Source: Alkalidesulfovibrio alkalitolerans DSM 16529
GTDB lineage: Bacteria > Desulfobacterota > Desulfovibrionia > Desulfovibrionales > Desulfovibrionaceae
Length of the DNA: 64,000 nt
Reading direction: 5' to 3'
Assembly: GCF_000422245.1 (NCBI RefSeq)
Contig: NZ_ATHI01000027.1
Location: forward strand, 62,001 to 126,000
A program made the translations under genes and the position numbers. Of the stretch, positions 39,342 through 53,714 are shown one piece after another; the first letter of the stretch is position 1; each line of letters opens with the position of its first letter. The notes below the pieces were generated by a model. The model was not told the DNA's origin. It was given only the letters and a program-made list of their open reading frames with translations, and did no database searches.

Positions 39342-41120
39342 CTAGGCGCGCGGCAAGTCGAAGACGAAGGCCGTGCCCTTGCCGTCGGACAGGGGGCTCT
39401 CCGCGCGGATGGTTCCGCCAAGCGCCGCCAGGATGTTGCGGCAGATGGCCAGCCCCAGACCCGCGCCGCCATCCTTTTTCCCCGGCCCGTCGCCCACGCG
39501 GTAGAATCGTTCAAAAACCCTGTCCCTGGCATGGGCGGGGATGCCCGGCCCCTGGTCCTCGACACGGAAGACCACACGGTCCTCGGAGCCGCGCGCCGAG
39601 ATGCGGACCTCGCCGTCCCTGGGACTGTACTTGACCGCGTTGTCCAGGACGTTTCGCAGCACGTCGGCCAGCCCTGCCGCGTCGGCCAGCGGCCGGGGCA
39701 GGTCGGCGGGCACGTCGGCCAGCAGCCGCACGCCCTTCTTCTCGGCCTCGGGCCTGAGCATGGCCAACGCCTCGTCGATCAGGGTCCGCGCATCCACGGG
39801 CACAGCGCGCGCGCCGGGCTGGCTGTTTTCCCAGCGCGCCAGGGCCAGCAGGCTCTCCACCATGCGGCTCATGTGGTCCGCGTTCTTCTGGATGATGGAC
39901 AGAAAACGTCCGCGCTCGGCCTCCCGCTCGGGCGGGAGGTCCGCAAGGGTCTCGGCGTAGCCCCTGATCGAGGTCAGGGGAGTACGCAACTCGTGGCTGA
40001 CGTTGGCCACGAAGTCGCGGCGCATCTGCTCCAGGCGGCGCAGGCGGCTTTGGTCCTGGACCACGACCACGGCTCGGCGCTCGCCCCGTGCGTCGACGTA
40101 GGCCTCGATGCGCGCCTCCAGTTCGCGGCTGTTCACGTTCATGAGAAGACGCGCAGGCCTGCCGCCAGGCTCGCGGGCCAGGATATTGGTCACGGCACGG
40201 CCGAGTTCGGCCTGCAGCGTGACCTCGATCACGGCCTTGCCCTGGGCCTCCCGCGCCTCGGGAAACATCTGCAGGAAGGCCGGATTCACGGAAACCACCC
40301 GGCCCTTGGCGTCCACGGTCATCACGCCCTCGGAGAGGCCGTTGAAGAGCGCCTGCAACTGCGCGCCCTGCTCCTCCACAACCCCGACATGGCGCTCGAT
40401 GTCGGCTGCCATGGCGTTGACCGCCTCGACCAGGGGCGCGAACTCGCGGCCCGAGTAGACGCGCACACGACGATCATAGGCCCCGCGCCCGATGGCCGTG
40501 ACCATGTCCGAAAGCTCACGGATGGAGACCATGAGACCGCGCGTGGCCAGCAGCGCGAGCAGGGCCGAAATCACGAGCCCGCCAAAAAGGATGAGCAACA
40601 GGCGCTGTTTGAGCGCGGCCACGCGGTCCGAGAGTTCGGCCACGGGCAGGGCCACGCGCAGGGTGCCGCCCTCGGCCACGCCAGGCACGGCGCAGGCGCG
40701 GGCCACGTAGATCAGGTCGCGGGCTACTGTGGCGCTGCGGCGGGTGTCCTCGCCGGTTTCGCCGCGCGTCGCGGCCAGTATTTCGGGCCGGGAGCCGTGA
40801 TGCTCCAGGGACGGCAAATCGGAAAAGACCACTTCGCTGTCCGCGACCACGCGACCCTGCGCGACATAGGTCAGGCGGACGCCCAGTCGGCCGCCCAGGC
40901 CCGTCAGCCATTCGTCGAACCGGTCCTCGGAAGAAAAGGACGGCTGTGTCTCCACAAGCCAGCAGGAGGCGTCGAGCAGGAGCAGGGCGCGCTCGCGCGC
41001 GTTCTTGTGCAAGTCGGACTGGATGGCTCCGCCCATGGACAGATACAGCGGTGCCAGACCGGCCAGAAGGAGGCCCCAGAACCAGAGCAGGAGGCGAAGA
41101 CGCAAGGACATCGTGGGCAT
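39342..41120 (-). CDS. PhoR-like transmembrane sensor histidine kinase
   Basis: A 592-residue kinase. ATG 41120 with AGGTG upstream is preferred; a GTG at 41129 is possible. TM1 is about residues 6-26, a periplasmic domain follows to about 170, then TM2 (LLLILFGGLVISALLALLA), HAMP, a PAS domain (about 260-370) and HisKA with VANVSHELRTPLTSIRGY, then HATPase (LDNAVKYSPRDG, GGAGLGLAICRN). This order matches PhoR/VicK kinases. Divergence from a phosphate transporter suggests phosphate sensing. No phoB is adjacent. Confidence 0.88.
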   Translation of the reverse strand: MPTMSLRLRLLLWFWGLLLAGLAPLYLSMGGAIQSDLHKNARERALLLLDASCWLVETQPSFSSEDRFDEWLTGLGGRLGVRLTYVAQGRVVADSEVVFSDLPSLEHHGSRPEILAATRGETGEDTRRSATVARDLIYVARACAVPGVAEGGTLRVALPVAELSDRVAALKQRLLLILFGGLVISALLALLATRGLMVSIRELSDMVTAIGRGAYDRRVRVYSGREFAPLVEAVNAMAADIERHVGVVEEQGAQLQALFNGLSEGVMTVDAKGRVVSVNPAFLQMFPEAREAQGKAVIEVTLQAELGRAVTNILAREPGGRPARLLMNVNSRELEARIEAYVDARGERRAVVVVQDQSRLRRLEQMRRDFVANVSHELRTPLTSIRGYAETLADLPPEREAERGRFLSIIQKNADHMSRMVESLLALARWENSQPGARAVPVDARTLIDEALAMLRPEAEKKGVRLLADVPADLPRPLADAAGLADVLRNVLDNAVKYSPRDGEVRISARGSEDRVVFRVEDQGPGIPAHARDRVFERFYRVGDGPGKKDGGAGLGLAICRNILAALGGTIRAESPLSDGKGTAFVFDLPRA

Positions 41121-41143
41121 GGTTCGCACCTGGAACGGTTAAA

Positions 41144-41193
41144 GTAACGATGAGTACAAGTCATTTGTTACGATCAGGTTACGATTTTGACAG
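41144..41193. promoter_or_regulatory. Pho-box-like direct repeats between phoR-like and pit genes
   Basis: GTTACGAT occurs at 41167-41174 and 41178-41185, starts 11 bases apart, followed by TTTTGACAG; a related GTAACGAT is at 41144-41151. On the minus strand this reads as CTGTCAAAATC then GTAACCTGATC then GTAACAAATG, i.e. 11-base units starting with a CTGTCA-like half, as in PhoB boxes. Confidence 0.55.
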
Positions 41194-41279
41194 TCGCGTG
41201 AAAAGTCTCTAGAGAAGGCCGACCGCCGGGCTCGCCCGGCGGGAGGGCAACCCGGCAACCCTGTAACCCGGCACAATAC

Positions 41280-42515
41280 ATGGAACTTTCCACCCTTGTC
41301 CTGATTCTCGCCCTTGGCGGCGGGCTGCTCATGGCCTTCAATCTCGGGGCCAACGACGTGGCCAACTCCATGGCCTCGGCCGTGGGGTCGAAGGCCATCA
41401 CGGTCAAGCAGGCCGTCTTCATCGCGGCCGCGCTCAACTTCGTGGGCGCGGTTTTTCTCGGTTCCAACGTCACGGCCACCATATCGCGCGGGATCATCAA
41501 CCCGGACATGATCCACGACGAACGCGTGCTCATGCTCGGCATGCTTGCCGCCCTGATCTCGGCAGGGCTATGGATGCTCACGGCCACGCTCACGGCCTTG
41601 CCAGTCTCCTCCACCCACTCCATCGTGGGCAGCATCATGGGATTCGGCTTCGTGGCCGGAGGACCGGACGTGGTAAACTGGGTGAAGATGGTCGGCATCG
41701 TCATGTCCTGGATCATCTCGCCCTTCTTCGGCGGGCTGATCGCCTTCCTGATCTTCTCTCACATTCGCAAGTATATCCTGGGCCTGCCGCACTTCATAGC
41801 CCAGGCCCGCAAATGGGCTCCCATCTGGCTGGCCCTGACAGTGTCCCTGGTCGGGTTGTCGTTCCTCTACAAGACCCCCTTCGGCAAAAACCTGGGGTTG
41901 TCGCTGGCAAGCTCGCTCGGCCTGACCTTCACGGTCGCGCTCGGCGTGTGGGCCGTGGGGCGCTACGTGACGAGACGGCTCCTGCCCGACGTGGAGCGCG
42001 GCCCCGAGGCCGTGGAGGAATTGTTCCGCCGCATGCAGATCGGCACCTCGTGCTACGTGGCCCTGGCCCAGGGAGCCAACGACGTGGCCAACGCCATCGG
42101 CCCGGTGGCTGCCATCTGGATCATCGCGCAGGACCATTCCCTGATCTCCACGGCCGAGATGCCGCTGTGGATGCTCATCTTCGGCGGCCTGGGCATTGCG
42201 GCGGGCATCACCCTCCTCGGCCACAAGGTCATGGCCACGGTGGGCGAGAAGATCACCACGCTGACCAACACGCGCGGCTTCGCCGTGGACTTCGGCGCGG
42301 CCACGACCGTGCTCATGGCCTCGAACCTGGGCATGCCGGTCTCCACGACCCACGCGGCCGTGGGTTCGGTGGTCGGCGTCGGCTTGGCGCGCGGCTTCGC
42401 GGCCGTTGATTTTCGCGTGCTCGGCAAGATCGTGATGTACTGGGTGCTCACGGTGCCCATCGCGGCCTTCACTTGCATCGTCATTTTCCAACTGCTCCGG
42501 TGGACGCTGCTGTAG
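41280..42515 (+). CDS. pit: Pit family inorganic phosphate transporter
   Basis: A 411-residue inner-membrane cation-coupled phosphate permease (PHO4 family). The two inverted family repeats are visible as FNLGANDVANSMASAVG near the N terminus and AQGANDVANAIGPVAA near residue 265, each followed by a PVSSTHSIVGS or PVSTTHAAVGS motif. About ten to eleven membrane segments. It overlooks a DUF47 gene 28 bases downstream, the usual Pit accessory. Start ATG 41280 lacks a clear ribosome site. Confidence 0.95.
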   Translation: MELSTLVLILALGGGLLMAFNLGANDVANSMASAVGSKAITVKQAVFIAAALNFVGAVFLGSNVTATISRGIINPDMIHDERVLMLGMLAALISAGLWMLTATLTALPVSSTHSIVGSIMGFGFVAGGPDVVNWVKMVGIVMSWIISPFFGGLIAFLIFSHIRKYILGLPHFIAQARKWAPIWLALTVSLVGLSFLYKTPFGKNLGLSLASSLGLTFTVALGVWAVGRYVTRRLLPDVERGPEAVEELFRRMQIGTSCYVALAQGANDVANAIGPVAAIWIIAQDHSLISTAEMPLWMLIFGGLGIAAGITLLGHKVMATVGEKITTLTNTRGFAVDFGAATTVLMASNLGMPVSTTHAAVGSVVGVGLARGFAAVDFRVLGKIVMYWVLTVPIAAFTCIVIFQLLRWTLL

Positions 42516-42543
42516 CGGCCGGAGGCATCGGGAGGATACAGCC

Positions 42544-43221
42544 ATGCGCATGCGCATACCCTTTTTCGGACTCGTCGCGGAACGCTCGCCCATGGCGGGC
42601 CTGCTCGACCACTACGGACAGATCGAGGCGGCCATGTCGCTGATCCAGGAGTCGCTGCTGTGCTATATCGGCGGCGGCAGGGCCTGCAAGGACTTCCAGT
42701 CCCTCAAGGCCGAGGTGGACCAACTCGAGGAGGCGGCCGACAAGATCAAGCGCCGCATCCGCAACCACCTGCCGCGCGGGCTGTTCATGGCCGTGGACAA
42801 GACCTTGTTCCTGAACTACACGCGCGCTCAGGACAACATCCTGGACGAGGCGCAGGACGCTCTTGACTGGCTGAGCATGCGCACCGTGTCCGTGCCCGAG
42901 GAGTTTCGCGCCCAGACGCTGGACCTCGTGGACGAAGCCGTGAAGACCGTGGAAACGCTCAAGCCCGCGCTGGAGAGCACGGTCAGGCTCGTGCATTCGG
43001 ACATCTACGACCGCAAAGCCACCAAGGAAACCTACCAGGCTGTGCGCGACCAGCACAAAAAGGTCCGCCTCGCCAAGGCCGCCTTGTCGCGCGCCGTGTA
43101 CGAATCGGACCTCGAATTCAAGGCGATCTACCAGCTCCTGCATTTCTTCGACGGCATGCACTCCATGAGCCACAACGCGGAGAATTGCGCCGATATCCTC
43201 AGGGCCATGATCGCCCGCTAG
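42544..43221 (+). CDS. DUF47 family PhoU-like Pit accessory protein
   Basis: A 225-residue helical cytoplasmic protein of the DUF47/TIGR00153 family, resembling PhoU and probably gating Pit. It has an N-terminal RIPFFGLVAERSPMAGLLDHY and helices with conserved acidic E/D-x3-D patterns (EEAADKIKRRIRNHL, DNILDEAQDALD). ATG 42544 has GGGAGG upstream. The TAG stop is followed directly by a palindromic-repeat arm. Confidence 0.9.
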   Translation: MRMRIPFFGLVAERSPMAGLLDHYGQIEAAMSLIQESLLCYIGGGRACKDFQSLKAEVDQLEEAADKIKRRIRNHLPRGLFMAVDKTLFLNYTRAQDNILDEAQDALDWLSMRTVSVPEEFRAQTLDLVDEAVKTVETLKPALESTVRLVHSDIYDRKATKETYQAVRDQHKKVRLAKAALSRAVYESDLEFKAIYQLLHFFDGMHSMSHNAENCADILRAMIAR

Positions 43222-43480: not shown

Positions 43481-43497
43481 TGTTAATAAAAGTATGC
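43481..43497 (-). promoter_or_regulatory. Shared upstream motif, copy 1
   Basis: On the minus strand GCATACTTTTATTAACA; the corresponding site before the second gene is GCATACTTTTGTTTACA, 15 of 17 bases identical but in opposite orientation. It lies 64 bases upstream of the sigma-54 -24 element, a suitable position for an activator. Confidence 0.6.
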
Positions 43498-43561
43498 AGA
43501 AAGCCCGTAATGAATTATGTAAATAATATTTAAATTCAATCAATTAATGCGGAACAAACCC

Positions 43562-43577
43562 TGGCCTGAACTTTGCT
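43562..43577 (+). promoter_or_regulatory. Sigma-54 promoter of the first YeiH-like operon
   Basis: TGGCCTGAACTTTGCT keeps GG-N10-GC, TGGC at -24 and TTTGCT at -12. The start of transcription would be near 43589, about 62 bases before the ATG. Confidence 0.8.
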
Positions 43578-43650
43578 TAATCGTGGTGTCGGAATGCGTC
43601 AGGCATTCGAGGCGCAACACGTGAAAAACCATGTATCAGGAGGAGGCCCA

Positions 43651-45396
43651 ATGGCTACCGATTCGAACAAAGAGATCGTCGTCGATCGCGGGAAATGGGA
43701 ATGGTCCGAAATGTGGAAGAAGGAAGACTGGTGGGCCATCTGGCTTGGATTCATCATCCTTGCCGTGGGCTGCATGATCTTCCTGCCCCGTCCCCCGGCC
43801 GACATGGACGCCAAGCTCGCCAAGGCCGAGGCCACCATGGCCTCCGAGGCGAGCCGTGCGCCCTTCCAGACCGTGGCCTGGCACCAGGCCAACGACTCCA
43901 AGTCCGGCGTCCGCGCCACCAGCGAGCCGCACGGCCGGACCCTGAAGACGTGGCTCGACACCCCCAGCAAGTGGAAATCCAACATCGTTGAAGCGCTCTA
44001 CCTGAGCGAGGCCGATGCCGCCAAGCGTCGCGAGGCCGCCGAGCCCAAGCATGAGGCCGCCAAGGAAAAGACCAAGGCAACGCTGGCCGAGGCCAAGGCC
44101 GCCGAGGAAGCCGCCGCCGAGGCCAACTTCCAAAGCGCCGAACTGAACGACAAGGCCGAAGCCGCCATCGCCGCCTGGCGCAAGGCGCGCGGCGACGAAT
44201 CCAAGGCCCGCACCGCGGCCAGCGTCAAGGCCTACAACAAGATCCCCTACCTTCTCGGCCTGATGGTCATCCTGGGCCTGTTCTTCGCCATTGGCACCCT
44301 GTTCATGAACATCGACACCGGCAAGTTCCTGGTCGGCTTCGGCTTCGTTTTCGCCTTGGCCGTCGTCGCTGAGGTCATCGGCAGACAATCCACCCTGTCC
44401 GAATACGGCTTCGGCTCCATCATCTGGGCCATTTTCGGCGGCATGCTCATCTCCAACACCGTGGGCACGCCCAAGTTCATGATGCCCGCCCTGCAGACCG
44501 AGTATTTCATCAAGACCGGCCTGGTGTTGCTGGGCGCCGAGATCCTCTTCAGCAAGATCGTGGCCATCGGTATCCCGGGCGTCTTCGTGGCCTGGGTTGT
44601 CACCCCCACCGTGCTCGTCCTGACCTTCATGTTCGGCCAGCGCGTGCTGAAGATGGAGTCCAAGACCCTGAACATCACCGTCTCGGCCGACATGTCCGTG
44701 TGCGGCGTCTCCGCGGCCATCGCCACGGCCGCCGCCTGCCGCGCCACCAAGGAAGAACTGACCATCGCCATCGGCCTGTCCATGCTCTTCACGGCCGTGA
44801 TGATGATCGCCCTGCCCACCTTCATCGTCTCCGTGGGCATGCACCCGGTGCTCGGCGGCGCCTGGATCGGCGGCACCATCGACGCCACCGGCGCGGTCGT
44901 CGCGGCTGGCGCGTTCCTGGGCCAGACCGGCATGTTCGTGGCCGCGACCGTCAAGATGATCCAGAACATCATGATCGGCATGATCGCCTTCGGCGTGGCC
45001 GTGTACTGGTGCACCAAGGTCGATTGCGCCCCGGGCCAGCAGGTCTCCAAGATGGAGATCTGGTACCGCTTCCCCAAGTTCGTGCTCGGCTTCATCGCCG
45101 CCTCGATCATCTTCTCGCTGATGATCAACTCCATGGGCAGCGCGGGCGACGCCATGGTCGACCACGGCGTGCTGCGCGGCTTCAGCCGTCCGCTGCGCGA
45201 GTGGTTCTTCATCCTGGCCTTCGCCAGCATCGGCCTGTCCTCCAACTTCCGTGAGATGGCCCACCACTTCAAGGGCGGCAAGCCTGCCATCCTGTACGTC
45301 TGCGGCCAGACCCTGAACCTGATCCTGACCCTGGCCATGGCCTACGTGATGTTCTTCCTGGTCTTCCCGGAAATCACCGCCGGCCTGATGAACTAA
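43651..45396 (+). CDS. Long YeiH-type putative sulfate/sulfite exporter, copy 1
   Basis: A 581-residue membrane protein. ATG 43651 has AGGAGGAGG upstream. The C-terminal two thirds (about 200-581) match the YeiH/PF03601 putative sulfate exporter family (GGMLISNTVGTPKFMMPALQ, KTGLVLLGAEILFSKI, SVCGVSAAIATAAACRATKEE, AFASIGLSSNFREM). Ordinary YeiH proteins are about 330-350 residues; here an extra 190-residue N-terminal part has one TM (about 26-45) and an Ala/Glu/Lys coiled coil (about 125-195). It is driven by sigma-54 and followed by a one-TM companion gene. Substrate is inferred from family only. Confidence 0.85.
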   Translation: MATDSNKEIVVDRGKWEWSEMWKKEDWWAIWLGFIILAVGCMIFLPRPPADMDAKLAKAEATMASEASRAPFQTVAWHQANDSKSGVRATSEPHGRTLKTWLDTPSKWKSNIVEALYLSEADAAKRREAAEPKHEAAKEKTKATLAEAKAAEEAAAEANFQSAELNDKAEAAIAAWRKARGDESKARTAASVKAYNKIPYLLGLMVILGLFFAIGTLFMNIDTGKFLVGFGFVFALAVVAEVIGRQSTLSEYGFGSIIWAIFGGMLISNTVGTPKFMMPALQTEYFIKTGLVLLGAEILFSKIVAIGIPGVFVAWVVTPTVLVLTFMFGQRVLKMESKTLNITVSADMSVCGVSAAIATAAACRATKEELTIAIGLSMLFTAVMMIALPTFIVSVGMHPVLGGAWIGGTIDATGAVVAAGAFLGQTGMFVAATVKMIQNIMIGMIAFGVAVYWCTKVDCAPGQQVSKMEIWYRFPKFVLGFIAASIIFSLMINSMGSAGDAMVDHGVLRGFSRPLREWFFILAFASIGLSSNFREMAHHFKGGKPAILYVCGQTLNLILTLAMAYVMFFLVFPEITAGLMN

Positions 45397-45406
45397 GGAG
45401 CGAACG

Positions 45407-45679
45407 ATGCGCATCGACACCGCCTCCCGAATGCCCCAAGGCGCGCGCAGCAAGGCGCGCGGCCTGGCGGGACTTGGCCTGGGCATCCTGTGCCTGTGGA
45501 TACTGACCTACGTGATTCTGCCCGCCGGACAGAAGCTGCCCCTGGCCAAGCCTGTCATGGACGTGCTCATCGCGGAGCAGGTCAACTCCGCAGCCTACTG
45601 GTACACCCAGTCCGAAGAGACGGCTGTCGGCGCCATGTACGTCAAAAACACGCTGGCCAGCCTCGAAAAGCGTAACTAG
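45407..45679 (+). CDS. Small one-TM companion of YeiH-like exporter, copy 1
   Basis: A 90-residue protein starting 10 bases after the exporter stop with AAGGAGCG upstream. It has a short basic N terminus, one hydrophobic helix (about 20-42, GLAGLGLGILCLWILTYVIL) and a conserved polar tail with KPVMDVLIAE and AYWYTQSEETAVGAMYVKNTL. No known domain was recognised. A second copy accompanies the second exporter with the same spacing and length, which strongly suggests a subunit or assembly factor of the transporter. Confidence 0.85.
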   Translation: MRIDTASRMPQGARSKARGLAGLGLGILCLWILTYVILPAGQKLPLAKPVMDVLIAEQVNSAAYWYTQSEETAVGAMYVKNTLASLEKRN

Positions 45680-45702
45680 TCAGACGGCCAGCCACTCACC
45701 CA

Positions 45703-45741
45703 GAGCGCCGTCCGGATTCGTCCGGGCGGCGCTCACTTTTT
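45703..45741 (+). terminator. Terminator of first YeiH-like operon
   Basis: GAGCGCCGTCCGG pairs with CCGGGCGGCGCTC around the loop ATTCGT, followed by ACTTTTTG. The same hairpin, base for base in the stem core, ends the second copy at 48111. Confidence 0.85.
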
Positions 45742-45758
45742 GCATACTTTTGTTTACA
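45742..45758 (+). promoter_or_regulatory. Shared upstream motif, copy 2
   Basis: GCATACTTTTGTTTACA, 15 of 17 bases identical to the inverse of the site at 43481-43497. It starts right after the upstream terminator and is 86 bases before the -24 element. Confidence 0.6.
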
Positions 45759-45844
45759 TGCCGGCCAACACAGGTTTACATAACCTTCCACCCCCCTTCC
45801 CTGAAAAGTTACCATAATTCGGCGTGTTATAAAAATATCCAATC

Positions 45845-45860
45845 TGGAACGCATCTTGCC
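45845..45860 (+). promoter_or_regulatory. Sigma-54 promoter of the second YeiH-like operon
   Basis: TGGAACGCATCTTGCC matches TGGCAC-R-N4-TTGC except for A in place of the first C; GG-N10-GC is exact. Transcription would start near 45871, leaving a leader of about 185 bases. Confidence 0.8.
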
Positions 45861-46058
45861 CCATGCAGCCACACGCGCGACCGCGAAGTTCGGTTCGGAC
45901 CGCTACCTTGCAAGGCGCGAAACAGCGAAGTGAAATGTCGACCGGCCGCACGGCCAAAAGGTTCCCGGGCAGCGGCCCGGCGGCCCGCCGACATGGACGC
46001 TTCACCGGCACGGGATCAGGATTCGTCAACGTCTTAACAAACGTACAGGAGGGGCCTC

Positions 46059-47804
46059 ATGGCTGCCGATTCGAAAAGCGAAATTGTCGTCGATCGTGGG
46101 AAGTGGGAATGGTCTGAGATGTGGAAAAAGGAAGACTGGTGGGCCATCTGGCTTGGATTCGTCATCCTCGCCGTGGGCTGCATGATCTTCCTGCCCCGCC
46201 CCCCGGCCGACCTCGACGCCAGACTCACCAAAGCCGAGGCCACCATGTCCTCCGAAGCGGCCCGCGCGCCCTTCCAGACCATCGCCTGGCACCAGGCCAA
46301 CGACGCCAAGTCCGGCCTGCGCGGGCGTAGCGAACCTCATGGCAAAACTCTTGCCTCTTGGCTTGCCACTCCGGCCCGCTGGAAGGACAACCCGCTGACG
46401 GCCTTGTACTTGAGCGAATCGGTCGCTGCCGAACGTCGTGAAGCGGCCGCGCCCAAGTTTGCGGCCGCTCAGGAAAAGACCAAGGCGGCCTTCGCCCAAG
46501 CTCAGGCCGCCGAGGCCGCCGCGGCCGAGGCCAACTTCCAAAGCTCCACGCTGAACGAGCAGGCCGAAGCCTCCATCGCCGCCTGGCGCAAAGCGCGCGG
46601 CGACGAATCCAAGGCAAAGACGGCAGCTTCGGTCAAGGCCTACAACAAGATTCCCCAGCTGCTCGGCCTGATGGTCGTCCTGGGCCTGTTCTTCGCCATC
46701 GGCACCAAATTCATGAACATCAACACCGGCCAATTCCTGGTGGGCTTCGTCTTCGTCTTCGCCATGGCTATTGTCGCCGAAATCATCGGCGGCCAAAGCA
46801 CGCTGCGCAGCTACGGTTTCGGCCCCATCATTTGGGCAATCCTCGGCGGCATGCTCATCTCCAACACCGTGGGCACGCCTAAGTTCGTGATGCCCGCCCT
46901 GCAAACCGAGTATTTCATCAAGACCGGCCTCGTGCTGCTGGGCGCCGAGATCCTCTTCAGCAAAATCGTGGCCATCGGTATCCCGGGCATCTTTGTGGCC
47001 TGGGTGGTCACCCCCACAGTGCTTGTCCTGACCTACATGTTCGGTCAGAAGGTGCTGAAGATGGAGTCCAAGACCCTGAACATGACTGTCTCGGCCGACA
47101 TGTCCGTGTGCGGCGTCTCCGCGGCCATCGCCACGGCCGCCGCCTGCCGCGCCACCAAGGAAGAACTGACCATCGCCATCGGCCTGTCCATGCTCTTCAC
47201 GGCCGTGATGATGATCGCCCTGCCGACCTTCATCGTCTCCGTGGGCATGCACCCGGTGCTTGGCGGCGCCTGGATCGGCGGCACCATCGACGCCACCGGC
47301 GCGGTCGTCGCGGCTGGCGCGTTCCTGGGCCAGACCGGCATGTTCGTGGCCGCGACCATCAAGATGATCCAGAACGTGATGATCGGCATGATCGCCTTCG
47401 GCGTGGCCGTGTTCTGGTGCATGAAGGTGGATTGCGCCCCGGGCCAGCAGGTCTCCAAGATGGAGATCTGGTACCGCTTCCCCAAGTTCGTGCTCGGCTT
47501 CATCGCTGCCTCGATCATCTTCTCGCTGATTATCGCCTCCATGGGCAGCGCGGGCGACGTGATGATCGACCAGGGCGTGCTGCGCGGCTTCAGCCGTCCC
47601 CTGCGCGAGTGGTTCTTCATCCTGGCCTTCGCCAGCATCGGCCTGTCCTCCAACTTCCGTGAGATGGCCCACCACTTCAAGGGCGGCAAGCCTGCCATCC
47701 TGTACGTCTGCGGCCAGAGCTTGAACCTGATCCTGACGCTGACCATGGCCTACGTGATGTTCTTCCTGGTCTTCCCGGAAATCACCGCCGGCCTGATGGA
47801 GTAA
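46059..47804 (+). CDS. Long YeiH-type putative sulfate/sulfite exporter, copy 2
   Basis: A 581-residue paralogue of the gene at 43651, same length and architecture: N-terminal TM, Ala-rich coiled coil, then the YeiH-family transporter. Over roughly the last 250 residues I count 13 differences between the two; the coiled-coil part differs much more (for example PKFAAAQEKTKAAFAQAQ versus PKHEAAKEKTKATLAEAK). DNA in the 3' part is also almost identical. ATG 46059 has AGGAGG upstream. The conservation pattern fits tandem duplication plus gene conversion at the 3' end. Own sigma-54 promoter and terminator. Confidence 0.85.
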   Translation: MAADSKSEIVVDRGKWEWSEMWKKEDWWAIWLGFVILAVGCMIFLPRPPADLDARLTKAEATMSSEAARAPFQTIAWHQANDAKSGLRGRSEPHGKTLASWLATPARWKDNPLTALYLSESVAAERREAAAPKFAAAQEKTKAAFAQAQAAEAAAAEANFQSSTLNEQAEASIAAWRKARGDESKAKTAASVKAYNKIPQLLGLMVVLGLFFAIGTKFMNINTGQFLVGFVFVFAMAIVAEIIGGQSTLRSYGFGPIIWAILGGMLISNTVGTPKFVMPALQTEYFIKTGLVLLGAEILFSKIVAIGIPGIFVAWVVTPTVLVLTYMFGQKVLKMESKTLNMTVSADMSVCGVSAAIATAAACRATKEELTIAIGLSMLFTAVMMIALPTFIVSVGMHPVLGGAWIGGTIDATGAVVAAGAFLGQTGMFVAATIKMIQNVMIGMIAFGVAVFWCMKVDCAPGQQVSKMEIWYRFPKFVLGFIAASIIFSLIIASMGSAGDVMIDQGVLRGFSRPLREWFFILAFASIGLSSNFREMAHHFKGGKPAILYVCGQSLNLILTLTMAYVMFFLVFPEITAGLME

Positions 47805-47814
47805 GGAGCACACG

Positions 47815-48087
47815 ATGCATACCGGCACCATCTCCCAAGCGCCCAATGGCCCATCCAGCAAAGCGCGCGGCCTCATGGGTCTCGGCCTCGGCATCTTCGC
47901 CTTCTGGCTCCTGACCTACGTGGTTCTGCCAGCCGGGCAAAAGCTGCCCGTGGTCAAGCCGGTGATGGACGTGCTCATCGCCGAGGATGTGGACGCCGGG
48001 TCGTACTGGTACACCCAGTCCGAGGAGACGGCTGTCGGCGCCATGTACATCAAGAATACCCTGGTCGCCCTGGAACAGCGCAAGTAG
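47815..48087 (+). CDS. Small one-TM companion of YeiH-like exporter, copy 2
   Basis: A 90-residue paralogue of the protein at 45407, again 10 bases after the exporter stop. The TM (GLMGLGLGIFAFWLLTYVVL) and tail (KPVMDVLIAEDVDAGSYWYTQSEETAVGAMYIKNTL in pieces) are conserved; the first 15 residues are not. Function unknown; retained in both copies with conserved spacing. Confidence 0.85.
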   Translation: MHTGTISQAPNGPSSKARGLMGLGLGIFAFWLLTYVVLPAGQKLPVVKPVMDVLIAEDVDAGSYWYTQSEETAVGAMYIKNTLVALEQRK

Positions 48088-48110
48088 CCAGACGACCCAC
48101 ACTCACCCAA

Positions 48111-48145
48111 AAGCGCCGTCCGGATTCGTCCGGGCGGCGCTTTTT
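48111..48145 (+). terminator. Terminator of second YeiH-like operon
   Basis: AAGCGCCGTCCGG pairs with CCGGGCGGCGCTT around ATTCGT and is followed by TTTCTTT. It is nearly identical to the first copy's terminator, so the duplicated unit includes it. Confidence 0.9.
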
Positions 48146-48428: not shown

Positions 48429-49025
48429 TCAGGAAAAGATCGTGTCCATTTCCTGTAGGCGCATCTCCTCGGCCCGCTTCTCGATGGCCTTGGTGGTGGC
48501 CCGCGCCTCGGGCGTCGTCTGCAGGTGGGTGAGCACCGCCTCGTTCACGGCCTCCTCGGCCTTGTGCAGGCGGTTCAGGAAGGAGCGGTAGGCTCCGGCC
48601 GTGGTGTAGGCGGCGCGCACGAGATCGGCGTGAGTCTCGCCATCCTTGTCCATGAGCTTCAGATAGTGCCGCCTGAGGATGTCCACCTCCTCGCGCTGCA
48701 CGGCGCGAACGACCTCCCATATCTCCGGAGTGCCCACCTCCTTCGGGGGGTCGGCGAAGAATATCTCGGCGGGCTCGCCGGTGATCTTCTCCTCGCGCGC
48801 GGCGCCCAGCGCCAGCGTCTTGGTGAACTGGTAGCCCCTGGCGAAGTCCTGAATGTCCTTTTTGTACTTCTGAAGCTTCTGGGCGTAGAAGACGAAGAAG
48901 ATGGGCATGAAAATGATCCAGATGGAGGCCTTGGGCTTGATGATGACGCTCTTGCCCAGGTCGTAGGCGAAATGCTCCGCGTTCATGCGGAGAAGTTCGA
49001 ATTTCGTGTCCAGGTCGTTTTGCAC
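48429..49025 (-). CDS. Conserved hypothetical protein, one-TM helical
   Basis: A 198-residue protein from GTG 49025 (VQNDLDTKFELLRMNAEHF) with AGGAG eight bases upstream; a longer frame to 49127 is less likely. One hydrophobic segment (about 38-57, ASIWIIFMPIFFVFYA) is followed by a long charged, helical region with a central FFADPPKEVGTPEIWEV and many Arg/Glu residues. It resembles a family of uncharacterised proteins of sulfate reducers, but I cannot name it with certainty. It is convergent with the second exporter operon. Confidence 0.65.
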   Translation of the reverse strand: MQNDLDTKFELLRMNAEHFAYDLGKSVIIKPKASIWIIFMPIFFVFYAQKLQKYKKDIQDFARGYQFTKTLALGAAREEKITGEPAEIFFADPPKEVGTPEIWEVVRAVQREEVDILRRHYLKLMDKDGETHADLVRAAYTTAGAYRSFLNRLHKAEEAVNEAVLTHLQTTPEARATTKAIEKRAEEMRLQEMDTIFS

Positions 49026-49200
49026 GTATTGCGCTCCTTGTGCGTGAGATCGAACAAGCGAGGCGATTTCGCCGCCCGTTCGCGACAAGACTGATACCTC
49101 ATGCCGCCCTGGGGGTAAACACTCCAAAGCCCTCCTCGGGAGCTGATTTTCCCCGATATTTCGCGGGCCATGGCGTGCGCCGTTCCCTTGCGGGCCGACG

Positions 49201-49554
49201 TCATTTCCTGTCTGTCTTGAAGAGGGCGTCGATGCGCGCCGAGACGGTCTTGAAAAACGCCCACTGGCGGGGCAGGCAGCCGAGAAAATACGCCAGACAT
49301 TCCCCGGCCGTCGTCCCGATCCCGATCACGTCGAGGGCGACCCTGAAGGACAGGATGAGCACGCTCCCGTGCAGAAGCCCCCAGGCGAGATGGTCGTGCA
49401 TCCTGCTCCAGAACGGCAGGCCCATGAGCGCTCCTTTGGCGAGCAGGATGCAAGCGGCGATGATGCCGAGCACGCGCAGCCAGAACCGACCGAAGAGGTC
49501 CACCGATACCGCGCCGAGTGCCGCGGCAATGGCCAGAAACAAAAGCGCTTCCAT
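49201..49554 (-). CDS. Small hypothetical membrane protein
   Basis: A 117-residue protein with about three hydrophobic segments (ALLFLAIAAALGAVSVDLF, VLGIIAACILLAKGALMG, LAWGLLHGSVLILSFRVAL) and a short basic C terminus. Starts at ATG 49554 with GAGGA upstream. No family recognised and no cofactor motifs seen. It is 175 bases downstream of the preceding minus-strand gene and divergent from the haem-sensor kinase. Confidence 0.6.
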   Translation of the reverse strand: MEALLFLAIAAALGAVSVDLFGRFWLRVLGIIAACILLAKGALMGLPFWSRMHDHLAWGLLHGSVLILSFRVALDVIGIGTTAGECLAYFLGCLPRQWAFFKTVSARIDALFKTDRK

Positions 49555-49842: not shown

Positions 49843-52287
49843 ATGCGAATACCCCGTCCATATACTCTTCAAAGCCAGTTCCTGGCCGGTCTCACGGTGG
49901 CCGCCATCGTCATCGGCGCGCTCTTCGCCGCTGGCTTCTATTTCCAGATGCAGAGCGTCTTGGAAAAAGAGGTGCGCGAAAAGGCCGAACTCATCTTCTT
50001 CCAGGTGGAGTCGGTGCAAAACTACGTGCGCAAGACCCTTCGTCCGCGCATGTATCAGGAGATGCCCGACAAGTTCGTCATCGAGGCCATGTCCTCGTCC
50101 TTCATCTCGCGCTCCATCATGGAAGGCACGCCCGAGTCCGCAGGGCACCTGCTCTATCGCCGCGTGGCCGTGGACGCCCGAAACCCGGATTTCGAGGCCA
50201 GGGAGAAGGAACGCGAGCTCATGCAGTTCTTCACCGAGCATCCGAGCATCCAGGTCTGGCAGGGACGCCTTATGATCGGCGGCACGGACCACTTCGTCAT
50301 GGCCCGGCCGGTGCGCTTCGAATCGAGTTGCATGTATTGCCACGGCGACCCCGAGACCGCGCCGCCCGAACTCATCGCCAAATACGGATTTCGCGGCTTC
50401 GGCCGCGAAGAGGGCAGCGTGGGTGGCCTGGACTTCGTGGGGCTGCCCATCTCGGCCCAGACCGGAATGGTGCAGCAAAAGGTCATGACCTACCTGATCA
50501 TCTTCTCGCTCACCGCGATCCTCTTCTTCCTGGCCACCCACCTGATCTTCAAGCGCGTGGTGGTCAACAACGTGCGCGTGCTGACCCGCATGCTGCGCGG
50601 TCAGGTGCGCGACGACAAGGGGCACGAACTTCTGCGCGACGTGCAGTCACGCGACGAGTTGGGCGAAATGATCGACGGCGTGGAGATGCTTGGCCAGCAC
50701 ATCTCGGAATCACGGCACAAGCTCGAAGAGTACGCCGCGACCCTTGAAGACAAGGTGCGCGCGCGCACCGCCGAGCTGGCCCGCGAGACAGGCGAACGCA
50801 AGGCGGACGTGGACCTTTTCGTCAAGCTGTTGCGCAGCCTGCACCGCAGCCAGACCCGGCAGCAGCTCTGGCGACGGGCCCTGCCGCTCATCGCGGGACG
50901 CTTCGGCCTGGCCCGCTCGGCCTACGTTTGCACCTACTCCTCACAAAACTTCCACGTCTGGCCCCAGGGCGCACCACGGCCCGAAATGCCCGACAACTGG
51001 ATCAATCTGCTCACCGAATCGCGCCTGCTGGTCACCGGAAGCGAGGCCGTGATCCCCGTGGAATCCACCGAAGGCAACACCGAGGGCCTGCTCTTCCTGA
51101 CCCGGGCGCCCGGCGAAGTCTTCCGCGACGACGAGCACGAACTCTTGCGCGCCCTGGGCCGCCTCCTGGGCATCGCCGCCGAATACCTGGGAGCGCTGGA
51201 CAACATCGTGCGCCACTCCGAGAAACTGCAGTCCATCTTCGAGGGCATCTCCGACCCGCTGCTGCTCATGGACGACCAGGGCTCGGCCATCGTCACCAAC
51301 GAGGCGGCCAGAAAGCTGACCCGCGAGCTCTCCGAGGGGCTGCGCGACGACGGCAACGTCATCCCGCTGCTGTGCGCCAACCAGGGCGGCGACGGCTCGT
51401 GCGACATCCGGCTGACCGCCGCCAAGGGCGTCTTCGAGGCGCGCGAGGTGCGTCTTTCAGGCGGCCGGGTCTTCGTGCTCGGCCTGCACCCCGTGGCGGG
51501 CGGCGGCGGCAATCGCGTGGTCGTGCACGTGCGCGAGGTCACGGCCGAACGGCAGATGCTCGACCAAGTCACGCAGTCCGAGAAGATGGCCACCGTGGGC
51601 AAACTGGCCGCTGGTCTGGCCCATGAGATCAACAACCCCCTGGGCGTCATCCTCTGCTACTCCGAACTGCTCAAGAAGAGCGCCGATGACGGCCAGAAGG
51701 AGGACCTGGAGGTCATCAGCCGCCACACGCGCCAAGCCCGCGAGGTCCTGAAAAACCTCCTCAACTTCGCCCGGCCCAAGATCGCCACGGACAAGAATAC
51801 CGACATCGGCGCGACCATGGACGCCGTGGCCCGGGTCTTTTCCGTGCAGGCCGAAAAGCGCGGCGCGAGCATCATGGCCAGCGCCGCCGACGACGTGCCT
51901 ACGGTGCGCATCGACCCCCAGATGGTGGAGCACGTGGTCACCAACCTCATGCTCAACGCCCTGGACGCCTTGCCGCCCCAATATGGCCTGATCACCGCTC
52001 GCACGGATTACGACCCGGACGGCGACGACGTGGTGCTGACCGTGGAGGACAACGGCACGGGCATCCCCGAAGACCACCTGCCGCACATCTTCGAACCCTT
52101 CTTCACCACCAAGGAGGCGGGCAAGGGCACCGGTCTCGGCCTCACGGTGATCTACGGCTTTTTGCAGGACATGGGAGGCCGCGTCGAGGTCGCCAACCGC
52201 CCCGAGGGCGGAGCGCGCTTCGTGGTGCGCTTCCCCGTGACGCCCACTCCCCGCGCCGAACGAAACGAGGACCACGCGACATGCTGA
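49843..52287 (+). CDS. Transmembrane haem-c (CXXCH) sensor histidine kinase
   Basis: An 814-residue NtrB-type kinase. TM1 about 14-36; the periplasmic domain (about 37-215) has the DUF3365/Tll0287-like pattern ending [16 protein letters not shown], where Cys163, Cys166 and His167 form a c-type haem motif; TM2 about 218-238, HAMP, coiled coil, a GAF-like domain (about 325-445), a PAS domain (about 455-560), His[13 protein letters not shown] with His594, and HATPase ([22 protein letters not shown]). It probably senses redox state or a small ligand through haem. Its stop overlaps the sigma-54 activator gene, its partner. Confidence 0.92.
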
Positions 52288-53714
52288 ACACGGCCGCACT
52301 TTCCGAATCCTCCCAGGCCACTGGCCGCATCCTGGTCGTGGACGACGAGCCGGATTTCGCCCGCGGGCTGACGCGACTCATCGCCTCGGAGTTCCCCGAT
52401 ACCGAATGCGTGACCGCACACCGGGGCGAGGACGCCCTGGCCATCCTGGCCGGTCGCGGCGCGGACCTCATAATCACCGACCTGCGCATGCCCGGCATGG
52501 ACGGTCTGGCCCTGCTCGGTCATGCCCTGGAGATCGACCCAGGCCTGAGCGCCGTGGTCCTCACGGCGCACGGAGCCATCGAGACCGCCGTGGAGGCGGT
52601 CAAACTCGGGGCCTACGACTTTTTGACCAAACCCGTGGAGCCAGGCGATCTCTTCGGCGTGGTCCGACGCGGCCTGGAACGCAGCCGCCTGGCGCGCGAG
52701 AACGCCCGGCTGCGTGAACTGCTCTCGGGCGGCGCGCCAGTGCTCATCGGCGAGAGCCCGGCCATGCTGCGCCTGCGCTCGGCCGTGGCGGCCATCGCCC
52801 AGAGCGACTACCCCGTGCTGGTGCGCGGCGAGTCCGGCTCGGGCAAGGAACTCGTGGCCCGGCTGATCCACGCCCACTCGTCGCGGGCAGGCAAGCCCTT
52901 CCTGGCCGTGAACTGCCCGGCCATCCCCGAAACGCTTCTGGAGAGCGAACTCTTCGGCCACGAGAAGGGGGCCTTCACCGGCGCGGACAAGCACCGCCGG
53001 GGCCTGTTCGTGGAGGCCGGGCTGGGCACCATCCACCTCGACGAAATCGGCGACATCTCCCAGTCCGTGCAGACCAAGCTCTTGCGCGTCTTGCAGGAGC
53101 ACGAAGTCAGGCCCGTCGGCTCGAACAAAACCTCGCGCGTGGAGGCCAGGGTTGTGGCTTCCACCAACCAGGACCTGGAGGCCAAGATCGCCACCCGCGA
53201 TTTCCGCGAGGATCTCTACTACCGCCTGAACGTGCTCTCCGTGACCGTTCCGCCGCTGCGCGAGCGGCTCGACGACGTGCCGCTGCTGGCCCAGTACTTC
53301 CTGAAGACCGCCTGCGCGGAGATGCGCGTGCCCGAAAAGACGGCCTCGCCCGAGGTGCTGGCCTGGCTCGTGCGCCGCGAGTGGCCGGGCAACGTGCGCG
53401 AGTTGCAAAACATGATGCGCAGGCTGGCCGTGTTCTGCACGGGAGAGAGCGTGGACATGACAGCCGTGCGCCTGGCAGAGCCCGCCGGACACTCCTCCGC
53501 GCAGGGCCAGGGGGCCACGCGCGCGGGAATAGGCCCCTACAAGAACGCCAAGGCCCAGGTGGTCAACCAGTTCACGGACGCTTATCTGCGGGAGTTGCTT
53601 GCGGCCACGCAGGGCAACGTCTCCGAGGCGGCCCGTCAAAGCGGGCTTTCGCGGGTGGCCCTGCAGAAGATCATGGCCCGCCTGGAGATCACGGCCGAGC
53701 AGTTCCGCCGTTAG
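52281..53714 (+). CDS. NtrC-type sigma-54-dependent response regulator
   Basis: A 477-residue response regulator. Receiver domain about 17-130 with phosphoacceptor Asp in IITDLRMPGMDG and TKPVEPGDL; AAA+ domain about 155-385 with Walker A GESGSGKE, the sigma-54 contact motif EKGAFTGADK, Walker B region TIHLDEIGDI and REDLYYRLNVL; C-terminal Fis-type HTH (GNVSEAARQSGLSRVALQKIMARL). ATG 52281 overlaps the kinase stop by seven bases. It activates sigma-54 promoters; the two exporter operons 4-9 kb upstream carry such promoters and are obvious candidates. Confidence 0.95.
   Translation: MLNTAALSESSQATGRILVVDDEPDFARGLTRLIASEFPDTECVTAHRGEDALAILAGRGADLIITDLRMPGMDGLALLGHALEIDPGLSAVVLTAHGAIETAVEAVKLGAYDFLTKPVEPGDLFGVVRRGLERSRLARENARLRELLSGGAPVLIGESPAMLRLRSAVAAIAQSDYPVLVRGESGSGKELVARLIHAHSSRAGKPFLAVNCPAIPETLLESELFGHEKGAFTGADKHRRGLFVEAGLGTIHLDEIGDISQSVQTKLLRVLQEHEVRPVGSNKTSRVEARVVASTNQDLEAKIATRDFREDLYYRLNVLSVTVPPLRERLDDVPLLAQYFLKTACAEMRVPEKTASPEVLAWLVRREWPGNVRELQNMMRRLAVFCTGESVDMTAVRLAEPAGHSSAQGQGATRAGIGPYKNAKAQVVNQFTDAYLRELLAATQGNVSEAARQSGLSRVALQKIMARLEITAEQFRR

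Follow-up and report, generated by a model that had tools for sequence, protein, structure and literature searches.

What is encoded where Alkalidesulfovibrio alkalitolerans DSM 16529 carries, twice in a row, a gene for a large transporter followed by a gene for a small membrane protein, do the two products belong together, and what might they move? The repeat lies in a window of 64,000 nucleotides (nt), the whole stretch of DNA that we analyzed (contig NZ_ATHI01000027.1, positions 62,001 to 126,000); all coordinates given here are those of the window. Our best overall explanation, to which we assign a probability of about 0.6, is that the locus holds a two-part membrane transporter duplicated in tandem, probably switched on by an adjacent heme-sensor two-component system and with a small anion as its likely cargo. 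The larger protein is a member of the PSE family (PF03601), and the smaller one, here called the companion, is a protein of 90 amino acids (aa) with a single transmembrane helix (TM). The two units consist of the following features.

43481..43498, plus strand: palindrome-like putative enhancer site of copy 1, TGTTAATAAAAGTATGCA, with 4 mismatches to the palindrome consensus of relatives
43561..43577, plus strand: sigma-54-type -24/-12 element of copy 1, CTGGCCTGAACTTTGCT, from a shuffle test
43651..45396, plus strand: PSE-family transporter, copy 1, 581 aa (PF03601, E 5.9e-43)
45407..45679, plus strand: one-TM companion, copy 1, 90 aa (open reading frame [ORF] and companion profile)
45703..45734, plus strand: intrinsic terminator of copy 1 (pattern scan; fold z -6.3)
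45741..45758, minus strand: palindrome-like putative enhancer site of copy 2, TGTAAACAAAAGTATGCA, with 2 mismatches to the consensus
45844..45860, plus strand: sigma-54-type -24/-12 element of copy 2, CTGGAACGCATCTTGCC, from a shuffle test
46059..47804, plus strand: PSE-family transporter, copy 2, 581 aa (ORF and PF03601 match; AlphaFold2 [AF2] model)
47815..48087, plus strand: one-TM companion, copy 2, 90 aa (ORF and companion profile; AF2 model)
48109..48144, plus strand: intrinsic terminator of copy 2 (fold z -7.0; absent from the pattern-scan list)

Both units are in register, with a start-to-start offset of 2408 nt, and share one layout: palindrome-like site, sigma-54-type promoter, transporter, companion, and terminator. 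The initial annotation had described two units of about 2.4 kb, each with a promoter, a 581-aa exporter, a 10-nt gap, a 90-aa protein, and a terminator, and the coordinates and the offset confirm this. The transporter copies are identical at 508/581 residues and the companion copies at 63/90; we rejected a chance repeat given 87% protein identity between the transporters at a constant offset. The gap between transporter and companion is 10 nt in either unit, but its supposed conservation did not hold up, as nominal gaps elsewhere range from an overlap to 239 nt (from unverified start codons).

We searched 59 genomes, that of the window and those of 58 relatives, counting a transporter as long at a match of at least 340 bits, a band that we picked ourselves. 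Some PSE match was present in 47/59 genomes and a long transporter in 30/59; a profile built from 58 companions matched in the very 30 genomes holding a long transporter and in no others. All but one of the 36 companion matches have a transporter at most 240 nt upstream; the exception (E 6.7e-4, inside a 995-aa frame) was taken as chance. In two overlapping phylum samples of 395 and 390 genomes, with the window's own genome counted in, a transporter match of at least 450 bits was found in 23 genomes, and the companion was found in 23/23 of these; companion matches appeared in two further genomes, G094 (E 1.2e-11) and G175 (E 1.9e-4, probably chance). Far from being widespread without the exporter, the companion yielded one convincing orphan (G094) in 390 sampled genomes. 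Co-occurrence and adjacency thus strongly support the earlier proposal that exporter and companion belong together, and it is from this pattern that we infer contact between the two proteins.

We then grouped transporters by bit score against copy 2 (long group A, at least 550; short group A, 330 to 550; group B, 200 to 330; these are score bands and not tree clades), having dropped exporters without a C-terminus, those with less than about 300 nt downstream, duplicates, and matches below 60 bits. A companion stands just downstream of 81/81 long group-A members (31 of them from named records), 32/43 short group-A members, 0/36 group-B members, and 0/1 for the single remaining match; a reverse-strand control gave 0/161. 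Two loci with companion-like two-TM neighbors, L071 (E 0.019) and L222 (E 0.75), were scored as misses. What separates members with and without a companion in group A is the stretch between the first two TMs (TM1-TM2), which forms the N-terminal domain: a companion follows 105/106 transporters with at least 35 residues there, versus 3/13 with fewer (Fisher p 2.9e-11, which ignores relatedness; 5 of the 124 group-A rows were dropped because they lacked a TM1 region). The long form has about 150 residues here, most short members have about 38 to 92, and others 21 to 31. In group B the stretch measures 70 to 120 residues in 31/36 members, yet a companion is absent there, and having the domain thus does not suffice for one. 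Named records with the pair come from Planctomycetota, Bacteroidota (Sinomicrobium and Marinoscillum), and Clostridium saudiense, and metagenome-assembled genomes with it are labeled gammaproteobacterium, Rhodospirillales, Zixibacteria, and Gemmatimonadota; some of the phylum labels rest on metagenome bins. One transporter labeled Nitrospira (L175) is nearly identical to that of the Desulfobacterota genome G129, reflecting either recent transfer or a binning error. Plasmid carriage was rejected, the sole match being one distant Hymenobacter, and no theme pointing to a substrate emerged among neighbors at 12 loci outside sulfate reducers, where first residues were read by eye.

Neither companion had a match in Pfam, NCBIfam, or PHROGs at E values up to 0.1. 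Its AF2 model (mean predicted local distance difference test score [pLDDT] 86.5, predicted template modeling score [pTM] 0.52) has a helix at residues 14 to 41 with three more helices behind it. Basic residues are commoner just before the TM in 36/58 companion rows and just after it in 9/58, a bias that suggests an outside tail bearing the conserved YYT motif; the full tail motif is (I/V/L)(D/N)xxAx(Y/F)YT(D/E). By this sequence pattern the companion would begin in the cytoplasm, cross the membrane once, and end outside in a short helical tail. At L038, L092, L173, L071, and L222, companions or companion-like proteins have a further hydrophobic segment at the C-terminal end. We noticed no natural exporter-companion fusion; a 766-aa frame (L116) proved to have an N-terminal run-on, with no companion motif seen by eye. 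Most likely the companion is the accessory part of a PSE transporter built from two subunits, most likely docking near the extracytoplasmic N-domain; that the two form a physical complex is a reading that we consider fairly probable, judging by co-occurrence and adjacency.

Membership of the transporter in PF03601 is clear (147.4 and 147.0 bits versus a gathering score of 24.5), with residues 229 to 547 alone matching. The initial annotation had called it YeiH-type, a label that is right about the PF03601 core and too specific otherwise: copy 2 reaches 77.1 bits against a TIGR00698 (YeiH) cut-off of 232.6, and one core motif differs, the second re-entrant motif being GGTIDATGAVVAAG here versus GSTVHEVAQVVAAG in Escherichia coli YeiH (one YeiH compared). 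In both group A and group B this motif most often takes the form GGT(I/V/L)D... We therefore rejected a function assigned by the name YeiH. Like the window transporter, E. coli and Salmonella YeiH have a PF03601 core and SxCGxxA (E. coli YeiH is 29% identical over 199 residues); unlike it, YeiH is 349 aa long, lacks the N-domain, and is under the LysR-type regulator YeiE. The gene downstream of E. coli yeiH is annotated as nfo and is not a companion.

The AF2 model of the transporter (mean pLDDT 91.4, pTM 0.87) places a TM at residues 25 to 44, then helices, a hairpin (120 to 157 and 163 to 190), a second TM at 198 to 218, and then the core. The N-terminal extension reported earlier thus exists, although it is not a TM plus coiled coil: a first TM is followed by about 150 residues, which include an antiparallel helical hairpin, and then by a second TM. 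By this model, with the membrane side predicted, the protein is a re-entrant-helix member of the PSE family in the CPA/AT clan, with two extra N-terminal TMs flanking an extracytoplasmic helical domain. It has the topology of PSE_2 in a CPA/AT survey (PMC8396727), in which two extra N-terminal TMs precede a nine-TM core; unlike here, neither a companion nor an extracytoplasmic domain is mentioned in the accessible text of that survey. Structural alignment with VIA-align found the CPA/AT core, with Z 14.4 to both PIN8 and MjNhaP1 and 12.4 to CitS (over 254 to 294 residues), and 13.5 to the beta chain of the oxaloacetate decarboxylase (OAD) beta-gamma complex; helical bundles can score about 13 through their shared general arrangement alone. 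Foldseek matches were weak (best E 0.032, CitS on top). The CPA/AT-type matches agree with the published placement of PF03601 in this clan (PMC8396727, PMC8562792) and of PSE nearest to the 2-hydroxycarboxylate transporters (PMC8396727), as far as the accessible parts of those papers go. A sequence search for a solved relative returned two antibody matches only (E 0.16 and 0.94). The whole-model structure search barely probes the N-domain, and matches to the hairpin are to generic long helices.

OadG is a one-TM subunit. The OadB-OadG complex thus resembles the window pair in joining a CPA/AT-type core to a small subunit, but this is an analogy and not a membership: 0/58 companions match the OAD gamma model in Pfam, and the sole Pfam match among them is of one member to PF10161 at 0.0072. 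A distant kinship with OAD gamma may nonetheless exist.

Downstream of the repeat lie the genes for a two-component system.

49843..52287, plus strand: histidine kinase with a Tll0287-like (sCache_heme) sensor domain (PF11845, E 5.4e-32; CMYCH at residue 163)
52281..53714, plus strand: NtrC-type sigma-54 response regulator (receiver, AAA+, and DNA-binding parts; GAFTGA in the translation)

The kinase combines the PF11845 match with the CxxCH motif and so belongs to the sCache_heme (DUF3365/Tll0287) sensors, 99% of which carry the CXXCH heme motif (2026 preprint PMC12889525). The regulator is an NtrC-type activator; its best model is NtrC at 408.6 bits, short of the equivalog cut-off of 558.6, and it is therefore not NtrC itself. 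Among 29 long group-A stretches of 19 to 20 kb, the heme kinase type was found in 20 and an NtrC-type regulator in 21; of 36 stretches surrounding weaker matches (34 group B and 2 short group A), most of them shorter, 1 had the heme kinase type. The sigma-54-type elements lie 90 nt (copy 1) and 215 nt (copy 2) before the start codons; scored against the sigma-54 consensus, shuffles of the own upstream stretch did as well in 1/200 and 0/200 cases, respectively. A stricter scan of the window, requiring at least 10 of 12 positions, listed zero sigma-54 sites, and good elements (p ≤ 0.02) occur in only 26/72 transporter upstream stretches.

The two 18-nt palindrome-like sites of the window are alike at 16/18 positions, stand in opposite orientation, and precede the -24/-12 elements by 62 nt (copy 1) and 85 nt (copy 2). 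A pattern made from them, which matches its own sites with zero mismatches by construction, found nothing else within 3 mismatches in the window; in the own genome it found one further two-mismatch match, against two control matches, and so a wider regulon was not seen with this pattern. The palindrome of relatives was picked from a k-mer list of upstream stretches that was topped by ribosome-binding-site words; TATGCA alone was rejected as the shared site, being scattered through the upstream stretches, while the wider palindrome is enriched. Before other long group-A genes there are 25 half-sites in 17/34 upstream stretches (shuffles: mean 3.3, maximum 8). Of the 93 palindrome sites in the 59 genomes 75 were listed, and 16 of these precede a PSE match at a distance of at most 1.5 kb, where 0.04 would be expected assuming 3.3 Mb per genome; the reversed control is compared by its number of sites. 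Seven of these 16 precede distant PSE genes that lay outside motif discovery, and a heme kinase and regulator are present at 7/7 of these loci. The slot formed by sensor, regulator, and palindrome is thus not confined to one class of PSE transporter and occurs both where a companion is present and where it is absent. We consider it quite probable that the adjacent heme kinase and regulator control both copies, with the regulator presumably binding the palindrome-like sites. Beside two distant PSE genes under the same palindrome lie proteins that, judged by eye, resemble universal stress proteins (L236, 6432-6884; L240, 9265-9717), as in DVU0542-0545.

Part of this arrangement is known from Desulfovibrio vulgaris Hildenborough. 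Its operons DVU0542-0545, DVU0943-0946, and DVU2133-2132 are targets of the regulators DVU0539 and DVU0946; two of the target transporters are named PSE, and the regulators' own kinases are not paralogous (PMC3333781, 2011; PMC4641369, 2015; accessible parts). As in the window, a one-TM protein (DVU0544, 133 aa; PMC10102598, 2023) comes after a PSE transporter (DVU0543), and a sigma-54 response regulator is involved; DVU0943-0946, known to us by description from these papers, probably has the gene order of the window. Unlike in the window, two universal stress proteins flank DVU0543-0544, DVU0539 also acts on lactate genes, and the accessible descriptions of these PSE operons contain no tandem copies.

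Building on the computed anatomy, duplication, co-occurrence, fold, heme motif, and palindrome association, the mechanism would run as follows. A periplasmic c-heme sensor would activate the kinase; ahead of each -24/-12 element, the response regulator would occupy a TGYAAAC..GTTTRCA-like site; and RNA polymerase with sigma-54 would transcribe the transporter together with the companion, which may dock on the transporter near the extracytoplasmic domain and be needed for stability or gating in the group with an N-domain. Nitric oxide (NO) and nitrite inhibit sulfite reductase. The cargo would be a small anion; if we had to name one, our guess would be sulfite, released from the cell whenever that enzyme is blocked by NO or nitrite. 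Such export fits because of this inhibition and because Salmonella YeiH protects against sulfite (PMC12880088); by analogy it is a tentative guess as to both direction and cargo, and it is doubtful. NO as the signal for the window kinase is a possibility that we put at somewhat below even, by analogy with one signaling-fused sensor of this type from P. azotoformans that binds NO and releases it slowly, as known NO sensors do (PMC12889525). The accessible text of that preprint does not draw a link to PSE transporters, and we found no mention of an NO response of PSE genes in the accessible parts of the D. desulfuricans 27774 paper.

Several observations weigh against this explanation. The evidence for the pair consists of adjacency and co-occurrence, from which physical contact is a further step; 11/43 short group-A and 36/36 group-B exporters have no detected companion, which means that PSE transport as such can do without one; no transporter was found in the 9.7 kb surrounding the orphan companion of G094 (L227, 5593-5898); and the companion profile was built partly from the same loci, so that its detection rate is not independent, although its placement in whole genomes is. 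On the regulatory side, 9/29 long group-A stretches lack a heme kinase, the copy 1 site has no exact half-site and 4 mismatches from the consensus, the palindrome is only mildly enriched across the 59 genomes (93 sites versus 52 for a reversed control), and at 3/7 independent loci it is flanked by PSE and kinase genes that diverge from it, so that either may be its target. The small protein could accordingly be a separate membrane factor, such as an assembly helper, a kinase regulator, or a stress peptide, that merely shares the operon. That it is fast-evolving, with Y66 alone nearly invariant, and that a single companion sequence used as query matched in 9/247 phylum genomes would suit this idea as well. 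We nevertheless consider it rather unlikely: the companion stays beside the exporter in other phyla, it tracks the exporter N-domain, and a search for the heme kinase was negative in the fetched flanks of L165, L168, L181, L187, L191, L208, L210, and L214.

Further objections concern the cargo. GSTVHEVAQ of YeiH reads GGTIDATGA in the window transporter (overall form GGT(I/V)D(A/S)TG), and since this motif is replaced, sulfite cannot simply be transferred from YeiH; the initial proposal of sulfite, sulfate, or a sulfonate is weakened by this and by the missed TIGR00698 cut-off. In D. vulgaris, lactate genes share their regulation with PSE operons, DVU0539 also targeting the lactate operon DVU3025-3033 (PMC3333781, PMC4641369), which speaks for a different cargo. 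The same two-part transporter might thus carry a carboxylate (lactate, pyruvate, acetate, or a relative) and serve lactate oxidation and not sulfur chemistry, as the nearness of PSE to 2-hydroxycarboxylate transporters and the weak lead of CitS in the Foldseek list would also allow; but the window-site pattern reaches no lactate operon in the own genome, and the group also occurs in records labeled Planctomycetota, Bacteroidota, and Clostridium, and we regard this cargo as unlikely. Direction is likewise at issue, because disrupting DVU0543 or DVU0544 improves growth with 0.1 mM molybdate (PMC10102598), a gain that fits import as well as export. If the transporter were an importer of sulfate-like oxyanions, molybdate included, such a detriment would be expected of a molybdate entry route, and in that study all genes of the cluster except DVU0540, DVU0542, and DVU0539 were detrimental at this concentration. 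Its authors leave the role open in the accessible text, however, losing a wasteful exporter could also help, and in Salmonella a distant member of the family, YeiH, gives protection against sulfite; import therefore seems to us quite unlikely. With the deviating motif, the connection to lactate genes, and the molybdate phenotype, the transporter may have another cargo or direction than the sulfite export that we tentatively favor.

How the repeat arose can be partly reconstructed. The window copies are mutual nearest relatives in a quick tree (support 100). Third-codon-position differences between them amount to 19/30 at codons 91 to 120, fall to 1/30 in each of three bins covering codons 361 to 450, and rise again to 28/91 in the companion. 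Silent divergence that is low in the 3' half of the transporter gene and higher in the companion is the footprint of gene conversion, by which the transport core has probably been held alike between the copies. Genome G001, of the same genus, has counterparts at the corresponding place: PiT, DUF47, the kinase, and the regulator show 70 to 80% identity to those of the window, the PhoR-like kinase 61%, and a 117-aa ORF 52%; the transporter of G001 is only 62% identical to the window's and is placed far off in the tree, the window pair clustering instead with G035 (76%), Desulfatitalea, and family f5 (support 99). The likeliest history, judging by these sequences, is a cassette swap between conserved flanks, although hidden paralogy may also account for it. 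Upstream of the repeat, 39342-43221 holds the PhoR-like kinase, the PiT phosphate transporter, and the DUF47/PhoU-like protein, in an order identical to that in G001. Between the repeat and the two-component system lies one further feature.

48429..49127, minus strand: NF038143 (HYxxLL) family membrane protein, an optional neighbor (E 2.5e-55, residues 42 to 231; the true start is probably inside the frame)

An NF038143 protein is also found beside the transporter in 7/29 long group-A stretches, and its gene in G035 is preceded, at a distance of about 0.4 kb, by a palindrome match. The 117-aa hydrophobic ORF (49201-49554) is situated between NF038143 and the kinase; it has no Pfam match, and its relatives are found near the transporter in some related genomes.

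The DVU0543-0544 pair and the control of PSE operons by DVU0539 and DVU0946 are already in print, as the accessible parts of the papers cited above attest; the present analysis adds the companion family and its association with the N-domain, as well as the link of sensor, palindrome, and PSE transporter. We found no description of a small protein as a conserved transporter partner of this kind in the open-license PubMed Central literature. At its boldest, the idea would be an obligate two-subunit form of PSE across phyla which in sulfate reducers acts as an NO-triggered sulfite vent, with the companion gating or stabilizing it from outside; in this full form it is speculative and unlikely to hold. 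PSE transporters are widespread and hardly characterized. If the two-part reading is true, the companion found behind 81/81 long members means that transporter-only studies may miss half of the machine, and the link to a heme sensor offers a candidate inducing signal, NO or redox, for the transporter.

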